Below are positions 50,535 to 57,042 of a DNA stretch of 64,000 bases, piece by piece (position 1 is the stretch's first letter; the number at the start of each line of letters is the position of its first letter). Both the position numbers and the translations under genes were made by a program. The DNA comes from Candidatus Phyllobacterium onerii (GTDB lineage Bacteria > Pseudomonadota > Alphaproteobacteria > Rhizobiales > Rhizobiaceae), in the NCBI RefSeq assembly GCF_028331445.1, contig NZ_JAQMHX010000005.1, positions 372,001 to 436,000 on the forward strand, read 5' to 3'. The notes below the pieces were generated by a model. The model searched no databases, was not told where the DNA came from, and worked only from the letters and a program-made list of their open reading frames with translations.

Positions 50535-51944
50535 TTGACCAAGGACTTTACGCGTAACGCACAGAAAACTGGTGGGATTGCTGATAACAGCGAAACCGCC
50601 AGGGAAGCTACGCGTGCGGTTGTCATCGTGCCAATTTTGCCACAACGCTTCAGTAATAGTGGCAATGGCGAGACCAATCGGTCGCAATTCCAGCATGAGT
50701 TCCAGCGCAGCGATGAAGCGAGGCTCGAAGAAGCCGAGGGGCTTGCGCGAGCGATCGACCTCAACATTGTCCATTCGGATATCGTGCAGGTTTCTGCGCC
50801 GCGCCCGGCTACATTGCTCGGGACCGGCAAGGTAGCGGCAATTGGCGAGATCATCGAGGCTTCACATGCGGAACTGGTTATAGTCGACCATTCCTTGACG
50901 CCCGTACAGCAACGCAATCTCGAAAAAGAATGGAATGCCAAGGTCCTGGACCGGACCGGGCTTATTCTCGAAATCTTCGGCCGCCGCGCCCAAACAAAGG
51001 AGGGTGCGCTGCAGGTGGAACTCGCGCACCTGACCTATCAGAAGGGCCGTCTGGTTCGTAGTTGGACCCACTTGGAGCGTCAGCGCGGTGGCGGCGGCTT
51101 CCTTGGTGGCCCGGGTGAAACGCAAATCGAGGCCGACAGACGCGCCCTGCAGGAAAAGATCCTGCGCATCAAGCGCGAGCTTGAGACGGTCGTTCGCACG
51201 CGTACGCTGCACCGGGCCAAACGCAAGAAGGTGCCGCATCCGGTGGTTGCCCTTGTTGGCTATACCAACGCCGGAAAATCCACGCTGTTCAATCGCCTGA
51301 CCGGAGCAGGGGTCGTTGCCGAAGACATGCTCTTCGCCACGCTGGATCCGACGCTGCGGCGCATCAAGCTCGAACATGGCGAAACGATCATTCTCTCGGA
51401 TACGGTTGGTTTCATTTCCAACCTGCCGACCCATCTGGTCGCCGCCTTCCGTGCGACACTGGAAGAGGTGGTCGAGGCGGATCTTATCCTGCATGTACGC
51501 GATATTTCCGATCCGGACACTGCAGCACAGGCCGAAGACGTTCATGCAATCATGACGAGCCTCGGCATCGAGCGTGGCGATACGAAGCGCATCATCGAAG
51601 TCTGGAACAAGATCGATCTGCTGGATGATGCCGGCCGCGAGACGGCGCAGCGCTTGAGCGCCGCGGCAGTTGGCAACGAACATCCGATCCCGGTCTCGGC
51701 GATCACGGGTGAGGGCGTGGACGACCTGCTCAAGGAAATCGAGGACCGGATCGCCGGCAAGCTCACCAAGGTCAAGGTTACTCTACAGCACAACCAGATG
51801 CGGCTCATGGACTGGATTTATCAGCACTCCAGCAATGTGAAGCGCAAGGATCTCGATGACGGTTCAATCGCCTTGACGATGGATATGACGGTCAACTCGC
51901 AAGCCATGCTCGACGAGAAGATGTTGAGCAGGAACAGCAGGTAA
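50535..51944 (+). CDS. hflX: Ribosome-splitting GTPase HflX
   Basis: 469 residues. The N-terminal HflX domain (ARLEEAEGLARAIDL; LGTGKVAAIGEII) precedes the GTPase. G1 is GYTNAGKST, G3 DTVGF, G4 NKID. HflX splits stalled 70S ribosomes under stress. The only start near the proper N-terminus is a TTG at 50535 with a poor ribosome-binding site; translational coupling to hfq may compensate. The gene is followed 1 bp later by a GGCGA/TCGCC hairpin that forms part of a mazG-derived repeat. Confidence 0.95.
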   Translation: MTKDFTRNAQKTGGIADNSETAREATRAVVIVPILPQRFSNSGNGETNRSQFQHEFQRSDEARLEEAEGLARAIDLNIVHSDIVQVSAPRPATLLGTGKVAAIGEIIEASHAELVIVDHSLTPVQQRNLEKEWNAKVLDRTGLILEIFGRRAQTKEGALQVELAHLTYQKGRLVRSWTHLERQRGGGGFLGGPGETQIEADRRALQEKILRIKRELETVVRTRTLHRAKRKKVPHPVVALVGYTNAGKSTLFNRLTGAGVVAEDMLFATLDPTLRRIKLEHGETIILSDTVGFISNLPTHLVAAFRATLEEVVEADLILHVRDISDPDTAAQAEDVHAIMTSLGIERGDTKRIIEVWNKIDLLDDAGRETAQRLSAAAVGNEHPIPVSAITGEGVDDLLKEIEDRIAGKLTKVKVTLQHNQMRLMDWIYQHSSNVKRKDLDDGSIALTMDMTVNSQAMLDEKMLSRNSR

Positions 51945-51991
51945 GGCGATTTTTTTCGCCGTCTTGGCTTCCTGCCACAACTTCCATTTCC
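51945..51991. repeat. Copy of the mazG 3' end beside hflX (direct repeat, left copy)
   Basis: A 47-bp segment matching 56125-56171, the last 43 bp of mazG plus 4 bp after it. The central 26 bp (51954-51979) are identical. A 2-bp deletion and several changes mean it no longer codes for the MazG C-terminus. Both copies lie in the same orientation and bracket the two lipoprotein genes. The T-run at 51950-51956 between GGCGA and TCGCC also makes it a weak hflX terminator. Confidence 0.8.
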
Positions 51992-52073
51992 ATAACTGGC
52001 TATTTCACATTGCGCCTGGCGAGGTGCAGCCAATGCTGCCCTCACCTGTTGGATGTTGATGGGCGATGCCGGT

Positions 52074-54011
52074 TTATTTTATGAACTGGATCGTCTTGTC
52101 AGCCACCGTTATTGGCACCGGATTGCTGGCAACGACTGTTTCGACCGGCTGTACCACGTCCAGCTGCCAGATGCTCACAAGGGCGGCATTCATTTTATCG
52201 AGGATATTGGGGATATCTTTCGTATCGGAACCCGCTGGTGCATCAAAAATTTCGCGTTGGTTGATGGCGATTTGGCTTTCAAGTGGCTGCGAGTCTTCCT
52301 TGGTCGCCTTGCTCGGGAATCTATCAATCCAGTCCATCCACTTTCCAAAGATGAGTCTTTTTTGGGTTACTGAGGGCTTCCCAGGCGTCCAGGTGAGTTT
52401 CCAGACTTCAACCAACCCAGCCTTTTCGCGCCCTATTCCGTCGTTGTGTATCGCATATTGGATATAGGGCGTATTGTCATAAGTGCTGACAAGTAGATCG
52501 ATGCCGGCGGAAAGCACAAAGTCCAGCTTGAAATTGCGCTCGTCGATCTGAGAGATGCGATGTTGGTTCTTTTGGACGCTGGCCTCATAATAGTCCATGC
52601 AAATATCAATTCCAAACGGCAAGCCATCGATGATATTATTCTGGAACTTTCCCGAGATTAACTTGTCATCAGAATCATATGAGCGACCAACTGAAGAGGT
52701 GACATAGCCGATTTTTACTTTAAGGTTATGCTTAACACTTATGATACATTCGTATATCGGGTTTTTCACATGCGCCATCATCGGATGTACCAGGTCAGGA
52801 CCAAGTGGATTGGGTTTTAACGTGCCCGCCATGGGATCACCACAACTAGAACCGGCTAATTCGTCATAGAAGTCGATATGCGACACCGTCCGTTTGGGCC
52901 AGATCATATAGGCGGGCCGTTTCGCACCATCGTTCAGCGGCAAATTATGCGTACACACGACGTGATTGAACGCCTCGTAGATCGTGCCGTCAATTTTCGT
53001 GTCATTCGGTTTGCGGGGATCAGCCATTGGTTTCAGCATGGCAATCGTGCCCGGCAACATGACGATATGCCCGTATTTCCATGCCGGAAATTTCTTGATC
53101 AATGTCTGGACGTGCTTCGTAACCGTGTTCAGACACAAATCAGCACCGAATTCCAGCTCCTCCTTGGTCCAGAAATCGCCAAAAGGCACATTCCAGTAGA
53201 ATTCCGGGGCCGTAACAAAGCTTACATCGAATTCTGTTGGCGACCGTTTTTCGAAGGCGGTTATCATGGCGCGATAGAGCAGCGCAAACCGGTTATCCAA
53301 TGAGCGTTTCAAATAGCTCTCGATCCCTTCGTAAGTCTTCGCCTCACTAGCCACTATGACCGCTCCCGGCGTTCCCGCCGCAACCTCCCGGCGTGCGGAA
53401 ACCTGCTTGTACGAATGATATTGCAGGCTGTAGATGCCAACTTTCTTCGGTTTGGAAGGCGCAGGGGCCGGAACCTGGATGACGTCACTCTGCTTCACCT
53501 GCTGGATGGCCGTTTCACGCGGCTCTTCCTCGATGGGAAGTGGCGCCTGGCCCGGAACCTGGATAATGTTATCCTGCTGCACCTGTTGGACGACCGGTTG
53601 GCGCGGCTCTTCCTGGACGGGAAGTAGCGCCTGGCCGGGAACCTGGATAATGTTACCCTGCTGCACCTGTTGGACGACTGGTTGGCGCGGTTCTTCCTCG
53701 ATGGGAAGTAGCAGGTTCTTGAACGTTTGGTTAGTTCCCTGATCCTGGTCACTGAAAGGCGGGATTTTGAGGTCCAGCTTCTCATATATGACGGTTTCCG
53801 TGACTGGAGGCTTCACCGGCGGCGCAACCGGTGGCGTGAATGTCGACGTGTCACTCGATGGGACGCTACTATCGCCATCGCAACCGCCCAGCATAGCCAG
53901 CAGCGGCGCCGTGGGCAAATAGGCGCAGGCCTGCAAAATTCTCCGTCGCATCGGGGAGGGCTGATCGGTATCGCGAGCCGGGTTGCGGCCCGTTCCAAAA
54001 ATGTCTTTCAT
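52074..54011 (-). CDS. Lipoprotein with diverged nitrilase-like domain, paralog 1
   Basis: 645 residues, no named family recognised. A twin-arginine-like MRRRILQACA is followed by a hydrophobic run and lipobox LGGC, with Cys44 as the predicted lipidated residue. A Pro/Gln-rich linker with three 28-residue repeats spans 101-184. The main domain (about 190-550) shows APEFYW (Glu270), WPKR (Lys373) and FGIDICMDY (Cys471). This is the Glu-Lys-Cys order of the nitrilase superfamily. The spacing from Lys to Cys is much longer than usual, so a large insert or a distant relative is implied. The C-terminus (550-645) has no known match. A paralog lies directly upstream. Confidence 0.6.
   Translation of the reverse strand: MKDIFGTGRNPARDTDQPSPMRRRILQACAYLPTAPLLAMLGGCDGDSSVPSSDTSTFTPPVAPPVKPPVTETVIYEKLDLKIPPFSDQDQGTNQTFKNLLLPIEEEPRQPVVQQVQQGNIIQVPGQALLPVQEEPRQPVVQQVQQDNIIQVPGQAPLPIEEEPRETAIQQVKQSDVIQVPAPAPSKPKKVGIYSLQYHSYKQVSARREVAAGTPGAVIVASEAKTYEGIESYLKRSLDNRFALLYRAMITAFEKRSPTEFDVSFVTAPEFYWNVPFGDFWTKEELEFGADLCLNTVTKHVQTLIKKFPAWKYGHIVMLPGTIAMLKPMADPRKPNDTKIDGTIYEAFNHVVCTHNLPLNDGAKRPAYMIWPKRTVSHIDFYDELAGSSCGDPMAGTLKPNPLGPDLVHPMMAHVKNPIYECIISVKHNLKVKIGYVTSSVGRSYDSDDKLISGKFQNNIIDGLPFGIDICMDYYEASVQKNQHRISQIDERNFKLDFVLSAGIDLLVSTYDNTPYIQYAIHNDGIGREKAGLVEVWKLTWTPGKPSVTQKRLIFGKWMDWIDRFPSKATKEDSQPLESQIAINQREIFDAPAGSDTKDIPNILDKMNAALVSIWQLDVVQPVETVVASNPVPITVADKTIQFIK
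53460..53711 (-). repeat. Three tandem 84-bp repeats in lipoprotein paralog 1
   Basis: In-frame units coding for residues 101-128, 129-156 and 157-184. Each has the pattern LPxEEPRQPVVQQVQQ followed by NIIQVPGQA. Units 1 and 2 are closest; unit 3 is more diverged. Paralog 2 has no such array at this place, only a short linker with SVEVTHVPDKAPAP. Confidence 0.9.
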
Positions 54012-54091
54012 CTATGTCTCCAGAGCAAAATTGCTGAAATATTGGCCGTAGCGTTTCGTGGTTTAATCGAACCACAAATTTGTCAGAGCAA
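54012..54091 (-). promoter_or_regulatory. Duplicated leader upstream of paralog 1
   Basis: Eighty bp nearly identical to 55845-55924 upstream of paralog 2. It includes a GGAG ribosome-binding site and the inverted repeat GTGGTT-N6-AACCAC at 54058-54075. The conservation suggests a shared promoter or operator. Beyond it the two upstream regions differ. Confidence 0.6.
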
Positions 54092-54114
54092 GGATCGTCG
54101 TTGAGCTTTGAAGC

Positions 54115-54130
54115 GGGGCGTCACCGCCCC
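54115..54130. terminator. GC-rich hairpin between the two lipoprotein genes
   Basis: GGGGCG/CGCCCC, 6-bp stem with a 4-nt loop, 31 bp past the paralog 2 remnant. No T-run follows on the minus strand, so termination is uncertain. Confidence 0.35.
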
Positions 54131-54160
54131 ACCTTTTGGCTACCTATGGCGCGATGCCCC

Positions 54161-54494
54161 TTATTTTATGAACTGGATGGTCTTGTCAGCGTTTTTTGTG
54201 GCCACGGGATTGCTGGCGACCAGGTCTTCCGCAGGCTTGTCAACATCCAGTGACCAGATTTTGACAGTGCCGGAGTTCATTTCATCCATAATTGTCGGGA
54301 TGTCTTTTGTGTCCGCATCCTTGGGGGCAACAAACGCATCTGTCTGATCGACGAGGATAACGCCCTTTTCCGGCCTTTCCGCATTCTGCTGATTTTGATT
54401 ATTGGCATTCTGCTGGTTTTGATTGGCCATATCCTGCTGGTTCTGACTAACGGAATCGAGCGCGGGGATATCAGTGTAGTCCATCGTTCCCAAA
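54161..54494 (-). pseudogene. Out-of-frame 3' end of lipoprotein paralog 2
   Basis: After the frameshift, this frame codes for the homologous C-terminus of paralog 1 (EAWKLNWTKG at the start; DTKDIPTIMDEMNSGTVKIW and ADKTIQFIK at the end). Between them is an Asn/Gln-rich stretch with QNQQNA-type repeats, absent from paralog 1. It has no start codon or ribosome-binding site of its own beyond a TTG at 54553. It is probably untranslated remains of the former full-length gene. Confidence 0.75.
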
Positions 54495-55844
54495 TCATTC
54501 CCGATTCCTTTGGTCCAATTCAATTTCCAGGCTTCCGCCCATCCGCCTATCAAGCTGACTTATGCGGACCGGATCTAGCTGGATGCTTGCGCTGGAATAA
54601 TCCAGACAAATATCGACGCCAAAGGGCAAATCCTCGACGATCTTGTTGTTGAACCTGTTGGAAAGCAATTTGCCATTCGCATCGAATGACTGTGCGCGGG
54701 ATGAAGAGACGTGTTCGATCATGATAGGCACCTGCTTTCCTTCGGTTGTTAGCGCACACGTTACGAACGGGTTATCCATACCCAAATGGGCCGGATTCGG
54801 CAGTAAGCCGTCCTCGCTATAGCCACAAAAGCCGAAATCTATATGTGACACCATCCGTTTAGGCCAAATCATATAGGCAGGCCGGGGATATTTTGTGTCA
54901 TCAAGCGGCAGGTTGTGGGTGCAGGTAAGATGATTGGAAGCAAGATAGGTGGTTTCGCCCACGGGGGTACCGTCTTGTTTCACGGCCTCCTTGGTCGGCT
55001 TCAGCGTCGCGATGGTGCCGGGCAGCAAGACGATAGTGCCGTACTGGCTTACCGGAAATTTGGCGATCAGCGTTCTGGCATTGCTCGTCACGGTTTTCTG
55101 GCACAAATCCGCTGCCGCCTGCAGTTCGTTCCCGTCGAGAAAATCATTGAAAGGCACGTTCCAGTAGAATTCCGGCGCGGTGAAGAAGCTGACATCGAAT
55201 TCCTTGGGGGGGTGCTTTTGAAAGGCCGTCACCATCGCCCGGTAGAGAAGCGCGAAGCGATTGTCCAGCGCGCGTTTCAGATAGGTCTCGATGTCTTCAA
55301 TGCTGATAGTATCGGGTAGCGAAATGCTACCAATTCCAAAGGCCGATTCGCCCAGTTTGGCGGCTTCCTCGACCAACGCAGCCTTCGCAGGATTGGTTAC
55401 CTTGACAGAGCCAGGCGTTCCTTCGGGCACTTCCCGCCGCGTGGATATCTGGGTGAATGAATCATACTCAAGGCAATATATGCCGACTTTCTTGGGCTTG
55501 GAGGGTGCGGGCGCTTTGTCCGGCACGTGGGTGACCTCGACGGAGCCAGTTGTCAGCGTGTCCAGTTTCTTCTCCGGTAATTTCACCGGATCAGTTGTGC
55601 TGAAGGGCGGAATTCTAAGGTTCAGGCGCCTGGTTATCTCTGCTTCAATCGTCTGTTCTTGTCCGGGCGTAAATGTGGATGTGTCGCCAACCAGCGCGCT
55701 GCTGTTGTCATCGCACCCGCCCAGCATCGCCAGCAGCGGCGCTGTCGGCAAATAGGCGCAGGCCTTCAAAATTCTCCGTCGCATCGGGGAGGGCTGATCG
55801 GCATCACGAGCCGGCTTGCGGCCCGTTTCAAAAATGTCTTTCAT
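54495..55844 (-). CDS. Lipoprotein with nitrilase-like domain, paralog 2, C-terminally truncated
   Basis: 449 residues. The first 45 residues are nearly identical to paralog 1 (twin-arginine-like MRRRILKACA, lipobox LGGC with Cys44). The domain keeps Glu225 in APEFYW, Lys329 in WPKR and Cys413 in FGVDICLDY. After ISQLD (432) about 43 codons found in paralog 1 are missing and the frame shifts, adding 17 foreign residues to a TGA at 54495. The deletion joins two GGCGGA hexamers, which suggests slippage. Whether the truncated protein folds is unknown; all three candidate catalytic residues remain. An extra segment at 155-185 (AALVEEAAKLGESAFGIGS) is absent from paralog 1. Confidence 0.6.
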   Translation of the reverse strand: MKDIFETGRKPARDADQPSPMRRRILKACAYLPTAPLLAMLGGCDDNSSALVGDTSTFTPGQEQTIEAEITRRLNLRIPPFSTTDPVKLPEKKLDTLTTGSVEVTHVPDKAPAPSKPKKVGIYCLEYDSFTQISTRREVPEGTPGSVKVTNPAKAALVEEAAKLGESAFGIGSISLPDTISIEDIETYLKRALDNRFALLYRAMVTAFQKHPPKEFDVSFFTAPEFYWNVPFNDFLDGNELQAAADLCQKTVTSNARTLIAKFPVSQYGTIVLLPGTIATLKPTKEAVKQDGTPVGETTYLASNHLTCTHNLPLDDTKYPRPAYMIWPKRMVSHIDFGFCGYSEDGLLPNPAHLGMDNPFVTCALTTEGKQVPIMIEHVSSSRAQSFDANGKLLSNRFNNKIVEDLPFGVDICLDYSSASIQLDPVRISQLDRRMGGSLEIELDQRNRE

Positions 55845-55924
55845 CTATGTCTCCAGAGCAAATTTGCTGAAATATTGGTCTTAGCGTTTCGTGGTTTAAT
55901 CGAACCACACGCTTTCAGAGCAAT
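55845..55924 (-). promoter_or_regulatory. Duplicated leader upstream of paralog 2
   Basis: Counterpart of 54012-54091, with the inverted repeat GTGGTT-N6-AACCAC at 55892-55909 unchanged. The remaining 200 bp to mazG (55925-56128) holds no clear gene or terminator. Confidence 0.6.
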
Positions 55925-56124
55925 TAACGTGCCAAGTGAACATACTGGGCCCGAATTTTGCTTCGCTCGAGCCGATTCGCAAATTCAAGCCAAGACGGGC
56001 CATTTGGACGCGTTAAATTCACGCTACCCGGCCAAAATCACCAAGCAACAGTTGTGATGGGATGCAGCGAATGCCCAATGTTTATTCGGCATTTCGAAAA
56101 TGCCTAACAATGATGCATGAGAAC

Positions 56125-56171
56125 GGCGCTATTTCGCCGTCTTGGCTTCCTGCCACAGCGCTTCCATCTCC
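56125..56171. repeat. Functional mazG 3' end (direct repeat, right copy)
   Basis: The right copy of the 47-bp repeat. It includes the last 14 codons and stop of intact mazG. See the left copy at 51945-51991; the distance between copies is 4180 bp. Confidence 0.8.
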
Positions 56172-56950
56172 TCTAGCGTCGCCGCGTCGAGAGACTGTTG
56201 CTGTTCGGCCAGTTTGCGTTCGATGTAATGGAAGCGTTTGCGGAATTTCTCGTTGGTGCCGCGCAGAGCGCTTTCAGGCTCGAGTTTGAGGTGGCGGCCG
56301 AGATTGACGAGGGCAAAGAGCAGGTCGCCATATTCTTCTTCGGTATCTTGTCGATCGCCGCTGGCGATTGCTTCCTTCAGTTCGCCGATCTCTTCCTCGA
56401 TCTTGTCAAGGATTGGCGCAGCCTCTGACCAGTCGAAACCGACTTTCGCGGCTTTCTGCTGCAGTTTCAAAGCCCGCATCAGCGCGGGGAAGCCATGGGG
56501 AATATCGTCGAGAAAACCATCGGCTTCGGCCAGACCTGGATTGAGCGCGGCACGGCGTTCGCGGCGCTCGGCTTTTTCCTCGGCCTTGATCTTGTCCCAC
56601 ATGCCTTTGGCCATACCTGCGCCGCGCGCGGCTTCTTCGCCGAATACGTGTGGATGACGACGGATCATCTTATGGGTGATGGCCTGAACCACATCGCCAA
56701 AATCGAACGCCTTGAGCTCCTCGGCCATGCGTGCATGGAAAACAACCTGCAGCAGCAGATCGCCCAGTTCCTCACGCAGATCGTCGATGTCATTGCGCTC
56801 GATCGCGTCGATGACTTCAAATGCCTCCTCGAGCGTATACGGCGCGATGGATTTGAAATCCTGCTCCAGATCCCAGGGGCAGCCCGTTACGGGCGTGCGC
56901 AAAGCAGCCATGATATCGAGCAAGCGGGTTATCTCGCGTGATGGTTTCAT
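56129..56950 (-). CDS. mazG: Nucleoside triphosphate pyrophosphohydrolase MazG
   Basis: 273 residues, two tandem MazG domains. The first has CPWDLEQDFKSIAPYTLEEAFE with EELGDLLLQVVFHA metal ligands near residue 60. The second has KIEEEIGELKEAI and EEYGDLLFALVNLGRHL. It hydrolyses NTPs to NMP and PPi and lowers ppGpp-related stress effects in E. coli. The ATG at 56950 gives the normal start MKPSREITRLL, though the frame is open to 57031. In relatives it is convergent with and adjacent to hflX. Confidence 0.96.
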   Translation of the reverse strand: MKPSREITRLLDIMAALRTPVTGCPWDLEQDFKSIAPYTLEEAFEVIDAIERNDIDDLREELGDLLLQVVFHARMAEELKAFDFGDVVQAITHKMIRRHPHVFGEEAARGAGMAKGMWDKIKAEEKAERRERRAALNPGLAEADGFLDDIPHGFPALMRALKLQQKAAKVGFDWSEAAPILDKIEEEIGELKEAIASGDRQDTEEEYGDLLFALVNLGRHLKLEPESALRGTNEKFRKRFHYIERKLAEQQQSLDAATLEEMEALWQEAKTAK

Positions 56951-57042
56951 GAACGTAGAATAGGCCAAGTCATTGGCGGCGAACATGACGAAGCGCTGCC
57001 GTCGATTGCTTGTCCACAACGTGCACGCCATGGGGTAGCGCT

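Follow-up and report, generated by a model that had tools for sequence, protein, structure and literature searches.

The window analysed here is a 64,000-nt stretch of the genome of Candidatus Phyllobacterium onerii in which the convergent genes hflX and mazG are separated by an insert of lipoprotein genes. The features of this junction are as follows (positions are those of the window).

50535–51944, plus strand: hflX, convergent with mazG, recognised by its Pfam HflX domains
51954–51991, minus strand: left repeat copy, putative remnant of an old mazG 3' end (26/26 identical plus a 12-nt extension)
52074–54011, minus strand: lipoprotein A, an intact ORF of 645 aa with no Pfam and no NCBIfam match
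53459–53712, no strand assigned: an 86-nt unit repeated three times in tandem at 84-nt spacing, within the lipoprotein A linker (repeat search)
53864–54076, minus strand: start and leader of A, a 213-nt segment 92% identical to 55697–55909 at B
54161–54553, minus strand: 3' tail of lipoprotein B, out of frame, with 83% identity to that of the orthologue in genome G009
54495–55844, minus strand: lipoprotein B, an ORF truncated at 449 aa by comparison with the G009 orthologue
55845–56128, minus strand: right end of the insert, a conserved non-coding promoter region (cross-carrier comparison)
55891–55908, no strand assigned: palindrome GTGGTTTAATCGAACCAC with 6-bp arms, between the sigma54 site and the B start, with a second copy at 54058–54075 before A
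55919–55934, minus strand: predicted sigma54 (RpoN) -24/-12 promoter, TGGCACGTTAATTGCT, with 0 mismatches to TGGCACG-N4-TTGCW
56070–56104, no strand assigned: overlapping inverted repeats AATGCC-N12-GGCATT (56070–56093) and GGCATTTCGAAAATGCC (56088–56104), candidate enhancer sites
56129–57031, minus strand: mazG (ORF; PF03819, E = 6.6e-41)
56132–56171, minus strand: right repeat copy, the functional mazG 3' end (repeat search and local alignment)

The MazG encoded here is 97% identical to that of P. trifolii, the nearest among the named records searched. At the start of the mazG reading (window 56986–57031), 5 of 22 sequences have stop codons among their first eleven codons, which makes a true start deeper in the ORF probable; searches were made with the 285-aa reading from 56986.

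The sequence-only reading had described a 47-bp direct repeat, 26 bp of it identical, made of the last mazG codons and present both beside hflX and at the real mazG end, 4180 bp apart. Repeat search and alignment confirmed its derivation and both positions: TTTCGCCGTCTTGGCTTCCTGCCACA is an exact 26-bp direct repeat at 51954–51979 and 56132–56157, and the left copy starts 9 nt past the hflX stop codon. The length of 47 bp was slightly generous, since local alignment extends the repeat to 40 columns (51954–51991 versus 56132–56171; 36 identical, one 2-nt gap), and the start-to-start distance is 4178 bp. As had also been noticed, the left copy is degenerate, with TTT (plus strand) where the stop codon would be. 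When the last 63 nt of mazG were aligned to the hflX-mazG gap of the window, the score was 30.5, whereas 200 base-composition shuffles reached at most 19.5. With up to three mismatches allowed, TTTCGCCGTCTTGGCTTCCTGCCACA was found twice in the window and in none of 100 shuffles; the whole 6.0-Mb genome likewise yielded two matches. The repeat is thus specific to these two places, and the common intergenic element against which the sequence-only reading had cautioned was not encountered.

In the window insert, non-overlapping ORFs of at least 60 aa are limited to those of the two lipoproteins and the tail fragment of B. None matched Pfam at E 0.001; hence no integrase or transposase is recognisable, in agreement with the earlier claim. 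Across all seven inserts the non-lipoprotein ORFs are at most 112 aa long, and none could code for an integrase or recombinase. The window insert is a lipoprotein gene, tandemly duplicated. The pair looks half-decayed, because B has the predicted promoter but has lost its frame and 119 nt of the G009 orthologue near 54540, while A is intact but has no recognisable sigma54 site of its own; A could be read from the B promoter. In the orthologue of genome G013 the linker holds three different units spaced 105 nt (L133:5400-5751).

The right end was found in exactly the six insert carriers among 20 genus genomes and, apart from the copied leader before A, only at the hflX-mazG junction. It is 84–93% identical in the five carriers compared, even where synonymous divergence of hflX exceeds 1. 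Its predicted promoter is one of six perfect sigma54 sites in the window's genome (consensus as given in PMC3538637). Such sites, with 0–2 mismatches, precede the start by 75–124 nt in 10 of 12 upstream regions of the family and occur at all four kinds of chromosomal place that it occupies; their chance frequency is 0 to 0.02 (1000 Markov shuffles per region). The two regions in which no site was found are those of window copy A and of the Acinetobacter gene. From these sequences we infer that the lipoprotein gene is under sigma54 control. The overlapping inverted repeats, 160–170 bp upstream, may serve as enhancer sites; the first of them is not retained in P. endophyticum or KW56. A structured RNA was considered for the right end, but no Rfam match was obtained at E up to 1 and compensatory changes were found in 2 of 81 and 0 of 79 pairs, so a promoter region explains the conservation better. 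An integron-like attC site (GCCTAAC, noticed by eye) was also rejected, as no partner core in the appropriate order was seen. The GTGGTTTAATCGAACCAC palindrome stands before the start codon in 6/6 junction genes examined (as a variant in P. endophyticum) and in 0/6 genes examined elsewhere.

The lipoprotein family is present in 10 of the 20 genus genomes versus none of 79 others. Profile searches recovered it from only two of 297 genomes of the taxonomic family, both of the genus, and, among 398 genomes across the phylum, from the window's genome together with one weak N-terminal match (E 3.7e-4). Within the genus its members occupy four kinds of place: between hflX and mazG; on the upstream side of mazG, next to a trypsin-like gene (Phyllobacterium sp. 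628 and P. calauticae, 2/20 genomes); near a manC-like gene (G006 and P. sophorae); and beside ilvC (P. sophorae). No transposase was seen beside the lipoprotein gene at these four kinds of place. The trypsin-like gene, where placed, lies upstream of mazG (L137:7806-8828, L138:2902-3933) and adjoins a lipoprotein gene in two genomes.

Evolution of the lipoproteins is fast yet constrained (dN 0.18–0.34, dS 0.7–1.8; 11 pairs). Judged by eye, R22 R23 and G43 C44 are invariant or nearly so in family alignments; we take the former to be a twin-arginine motif and the latter to hold the lipobox cysteine. The products are predicted to be surface lipoproteins of twin-arginine type, presumably exported by Tat. 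Neither Pfam (E 0.001) nor NCBIfam gave a match for them. Matches of one of 11 members to Pfam GldD_lipo (E 0.15) and of a solved-structure profile search to a single entry (E 1.3) were taken as chance, the two structure models were too poor for the fold to be judged (pLDDT 31.7 and 37.9), and a defence function was rejected for want of a PADLOC match. Residues E270, K373 and C471 are invariant in all 12 members compared, and might correspond to the Glu-Lys-Cys catalytic triad of the nitrilase superfamily. Nitrilase homology was rejected: in a comparison with 16 CN_hydrolase domains of relatives, hhalign gave a probability of 0.1 (of 30 loci, 14 were left out because of a stop in the translated stretch), and Pfam scans returned no CN_hydrolase match.

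Outside the genus, relatives were found on 23 Acinetobacter plasmids and one Burkholderia replicon (24 of 72,556 records), the top records being about 41% identical across 68% of the query. The Acinetobacter proteins (e.g., WP_005130205.1) are homologous to the Phyllobacterium cargo and, by eye, share a twin-arginine-like signal and a lipobox. Unlike the cargo, their genes are plasmid-borne and upstream of tatABC, and the one examined has no canonical sigma54 site. In all three annotated records read, tatABC lies downstream with one short gene between, which suggests a dedicated export partner; the 41% identical relative is about 0.8 kb upstream of plasmid-borne tatABC (L159:9725-11332; L200, L201). 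The cargo matches PHROG family phrog_36740 (E 1.4e-97). Despite this match, spread on viruses was rejected, as nothing was found in 50,697 phage records or confirmed in viral contigs.

To compare the junction among relatives, hflX, mazG and the lipoproteins were placed by tblastn in loci picked by MazG similarity and by place. The 20 genus genomes comprise 11 empty junctions, six lipoprotein carriers, one remnant and two junctions with an unrelated HAD hydrolase gene (sp. 628 and G011). At the empty sites mazG stands 13–32 bp from hflX, measured from alignment end to alignment end. The carriers are the window's genome, G009, G013, KW56 (G007), P. endophyticum (G005) and P. brassicacearum (G019, degraded). 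In P. sp. 2063 (G014) the remnant, identified by eye, amounts to only about 20 nt from the 3' end of a lipoprotein gene. Ten ORFs from filled junctions elsewhere were scanned against Pfam: one is the HAD gene of the genus, two had no match, and seven, from outside the genus, matched AraC, glutamate dehydrogenase, HlyD-type, FAD oxidoreductase, YdeI-type, GGDEF and MqsA families; none is a recombinase. The sequence-only reading had looked to relatives for empty sites and for different cargo at the same site, and both exist; with 11 of 20 junctions empty, the contrary case that it had named, an insert in all close relatives, did not occur. The hflX-mazG junction is a permissive place between convergent genes.

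The stop codons of hflX and mazG are 6 nt apart at 6 of the 11 empty genus sites (P. trifolii, G006, P. calauticae, OV277, P. myrsinacearum AN3 and AFS091992), and also in P. myrsinacearum DSM 5892; spacings at the remaining five are 20, 5, 4 and 1 nt and an overlap of 4. In four of the six carriers (window, G009, G013 and P. brassicacearum) the former stop of the left copy is also 6 nt past the hflX stop; it is 8 nt past it in P. endophyticum and 5 nt in KW56, where most of the copy is lost and its outermost part alone survives. The left-copy score exceeded all 200 shuffles in the same four carriers and was not significant in KW56 (reached by 35 of 200) or P. endophyticum (7 of 200). The G009 and G013 left copies retain a TAA stop, like the P. 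myrsinacearum group, and the sp. 2063 remnant has no left copy. As left copies are spaced like the commonest empty sites, the left copy appears to be the original mazG end, and the copy now serving mazG would appear to be the added one, or its duplicate.

By the shuffle test, none of 29 non-carrier junctions holds a mazG-end repeat of carrier length. Two Mesorhizobium non-carriers with gaps of 67–68 bp have a mazG-end copy of about 13 nt (score reached by 0 and 2 of 200 shuffles), lying just past the mazG stop and without cargo (L039:10810-10865, L043:10805-10865); at the other 27 junctions at least 9 of 200 shuffles reached the score. The sequence-only reading had offered two accounts of the repeat, a segment arriving with its own replacement mazG terminus or a partial duplication. 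Empty sites, left-copy spacing and the different cargo elsewhere support an insertion with partial duplication of the mazG end. A replacement terminus brought in by the segment, as by an att-type element, is a possible alternative to duplication of the target; 27 of the 29 non-carrier junctions are unremarkable.

A tree built from hflX and mazG joins P. trifolii to the window and KW56 (support 100) and pairs G009 with G013; P. brassicacearum, sp. 2063 and P. endophyticum branch off further out, one after another. Supports of the deeper nodes for one clade of all carriers are weak (77, 78, 71 and 64). P. sophorae and G006, with empty junctions, lie outside the carrier group. P. trifolii has no insert and no family member anywhere in its genome, and TAAGCG(A/G)ATT at the hflX end is common to it and KW56. 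Being empty yet grouped with two carriers, it is likely to have lost the insert. A deletion between the mazG ends suits this case, with replacement from an empty-site donor and primary absence as possible alternatives; the repeat may have been used once to remove the insert.

The lipoprotein tree, from which the P. brassicacearum fragments were left out, unites the genes of the five carriers with usable sequence in one group (99). Within it are an A-type subclade (window A and G013; 100) and a B-type subclade (window B, KW56 and G009; 99): the window holds both types, G013 A only, and G009 and KW56 B only. The 92% identity of the A and B starts over 213 nt would favour copy loss by recombination. 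Synonymous divergence between window B and KW56 is 0.84 for the lipoprotein gene and 0.23 for hflX; between window A and G013 the values are 0.88 and 0.48. Such an excess between close carriers is not predicted by plain vertical descent of orthologues; it may stem from relaxed codon constraint, gene conversion or inter-lineage exchange.

The economical reading, towards which we lean, is a single insertion at the mazG 3' end, by a recombinase-free (illegitimate) mechanism with target duplication, followed by descent with decay. A self-contained unit, composed of a sigma54 promoter region and a gene for a twin-arginine-type lipoprotein, would have entered once, in an ancestor within Phyllobacterium, at the point where mazG and hflX meet tail to tail. 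Some 40–50 bp of the mazG end would have been duplicated in the process, the old end being left by hflX as a non-coding scar and the working copy staying with mazG on the other side. The unit would then have been inherited vertically and its gene tandemly duplicated into A and B; single-copy states would have arisen in different species as the scar decayed. In P. trifolii the whole insert would have gone, probably by recombination or slippage between the mazG ends, with a single end restored. Several points speak against this account: the weak support for one clade of all carriers, the loss or non-significance of the left copy in two of six carriers and its absence from the sp. 2063 remnant, the excess of lipoprotein synonymous divergence over that of hflX, and a duplication whose length and position would also suit an integrase att core. 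The family member on the other side of mazG in two of 20 genomes could hint at local rearrangement.

The most serious competitor, in our estimate possible but clearly the less probable reading, is an integrase-bearing element that used the mazG 3' end as attB, carried a matching end in attP and later eroded, so that the repeat represents attL and attR. It would account for a direct repeat of 40–50 bp at a conserved gene 3' end, which resembles an integrase att core in length and position, as well as for the restored gene end and the empty sites; repeats reported to flank S. meliloti tRNA-gene insertions (PMC11476347) span 12–98 bp, a range that includes this one. That most of the relatives found beyond the genus lie on Acinetobacter plasmids and that a phage protein family matches would also fit. 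Yet no ORF fit for an integrase is present in the seven inserts (loss by erosion is possible), no recombinase occurs among the 10 ORFs scanned at other filled junctions, the 29 non-carrier junctions offer only the two short Mesorhizobium copies, and the phage records gave no cargo match. The five family copies at other loci likewise have no gene-end repeat; the ilvC copy is spanned by one weak pair (20 nt, 85%), inside coding sequence and more than 1 kb away. Among the literature matches listed, no title or opening of an abstract names mazG as an integration site, and no paper on this locus was found by title in a search on Phyllobacterium, hflX and mazG.

We consider it unlikely that a block of lipoprotein, trypsin-like gene and mazG was duplicated in tandem and most of the second mazG deleted, leaving its end by hflX. 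This would explain the hflX spacing of the leftover end, and sp. 628 and P. calauticae have the three genes in the same strand order. However, a full-length trypsin-like gene exists in only 5 of 20 genus genomes (G003, G011, G012, G015 and G016), which form one clade with P. myrsinacearum, and in carriers no trace of a lipoprotein or trypsin-like gene was detected by tblastn upstream of mazG. In P. sophorae, P. pellucidum and others ybaK is upstream of mazG with neither gene detected between, so extra losses would be needed. About equally improbable, to our mind, is that the lipoprotein gene and its sigma54 promoter form a relocating unit which entered at mazG by circle insertion or by template switching with copying of the target-gene end, the repeat later providing its exit. 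Finally, that the repeat is a chance match or a common intergenic element unrelated to insertion is scarcely credible: in its favour, most carriers have a degenerate left copy and two a non-significant one, but only two copies exist in the genome, none of 200 shuffles reached the score in the window, G009, G013 or P. brassicacearum, and left-copy spacing matches the commonest empty sites. In our view these counts refute it.

The site provides a natural series (empty, two-gene, one-gene, degraded and apparently re-emptied) in which the arrival and departure of a single gene at a conserved junction can be followed, with no mobile element in evidence. A second point of interest is the uncharacterised lipoprotein family itself, which has a conserved sigma54 site and is common to Phyllobacterium chromosomes and Acinetobacter plasmids.

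Genomic islands integrate at tRNA gene 3' ends (PMC11476347), and trmE has been reported as another integration gene for such islands and prophages. As in those elements, a direct repeat of the target-gene 3' end flanks the Phyllobacterium insert, the gene end is restored and empty sites exist. In contrast to them, the insert has no recombinase gene and carries one kind of gene as cargo, appears to derive from a single ancestral event, and has no counterpart of the gene-end repeat at the other sites of the family; recurrent use of the same att site by different elements was not seen among the 29 non-carrier junctions and 10 scanned ORFs. For the insert, no parent site bearing the mazG-end repeat came to light. 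A further parallel is provided by Arabidopsis, where, according to PMC2869330, transposed single genes are flanked by direct repeats of a genic target and insertion of a circle has been proposed. Arabidopsis is a eukaryote and the circle mechanism a proposal made for it; in both cases a non-transposon gene occupies a new site and is bordered by a direct repeat with homology to its genic target.
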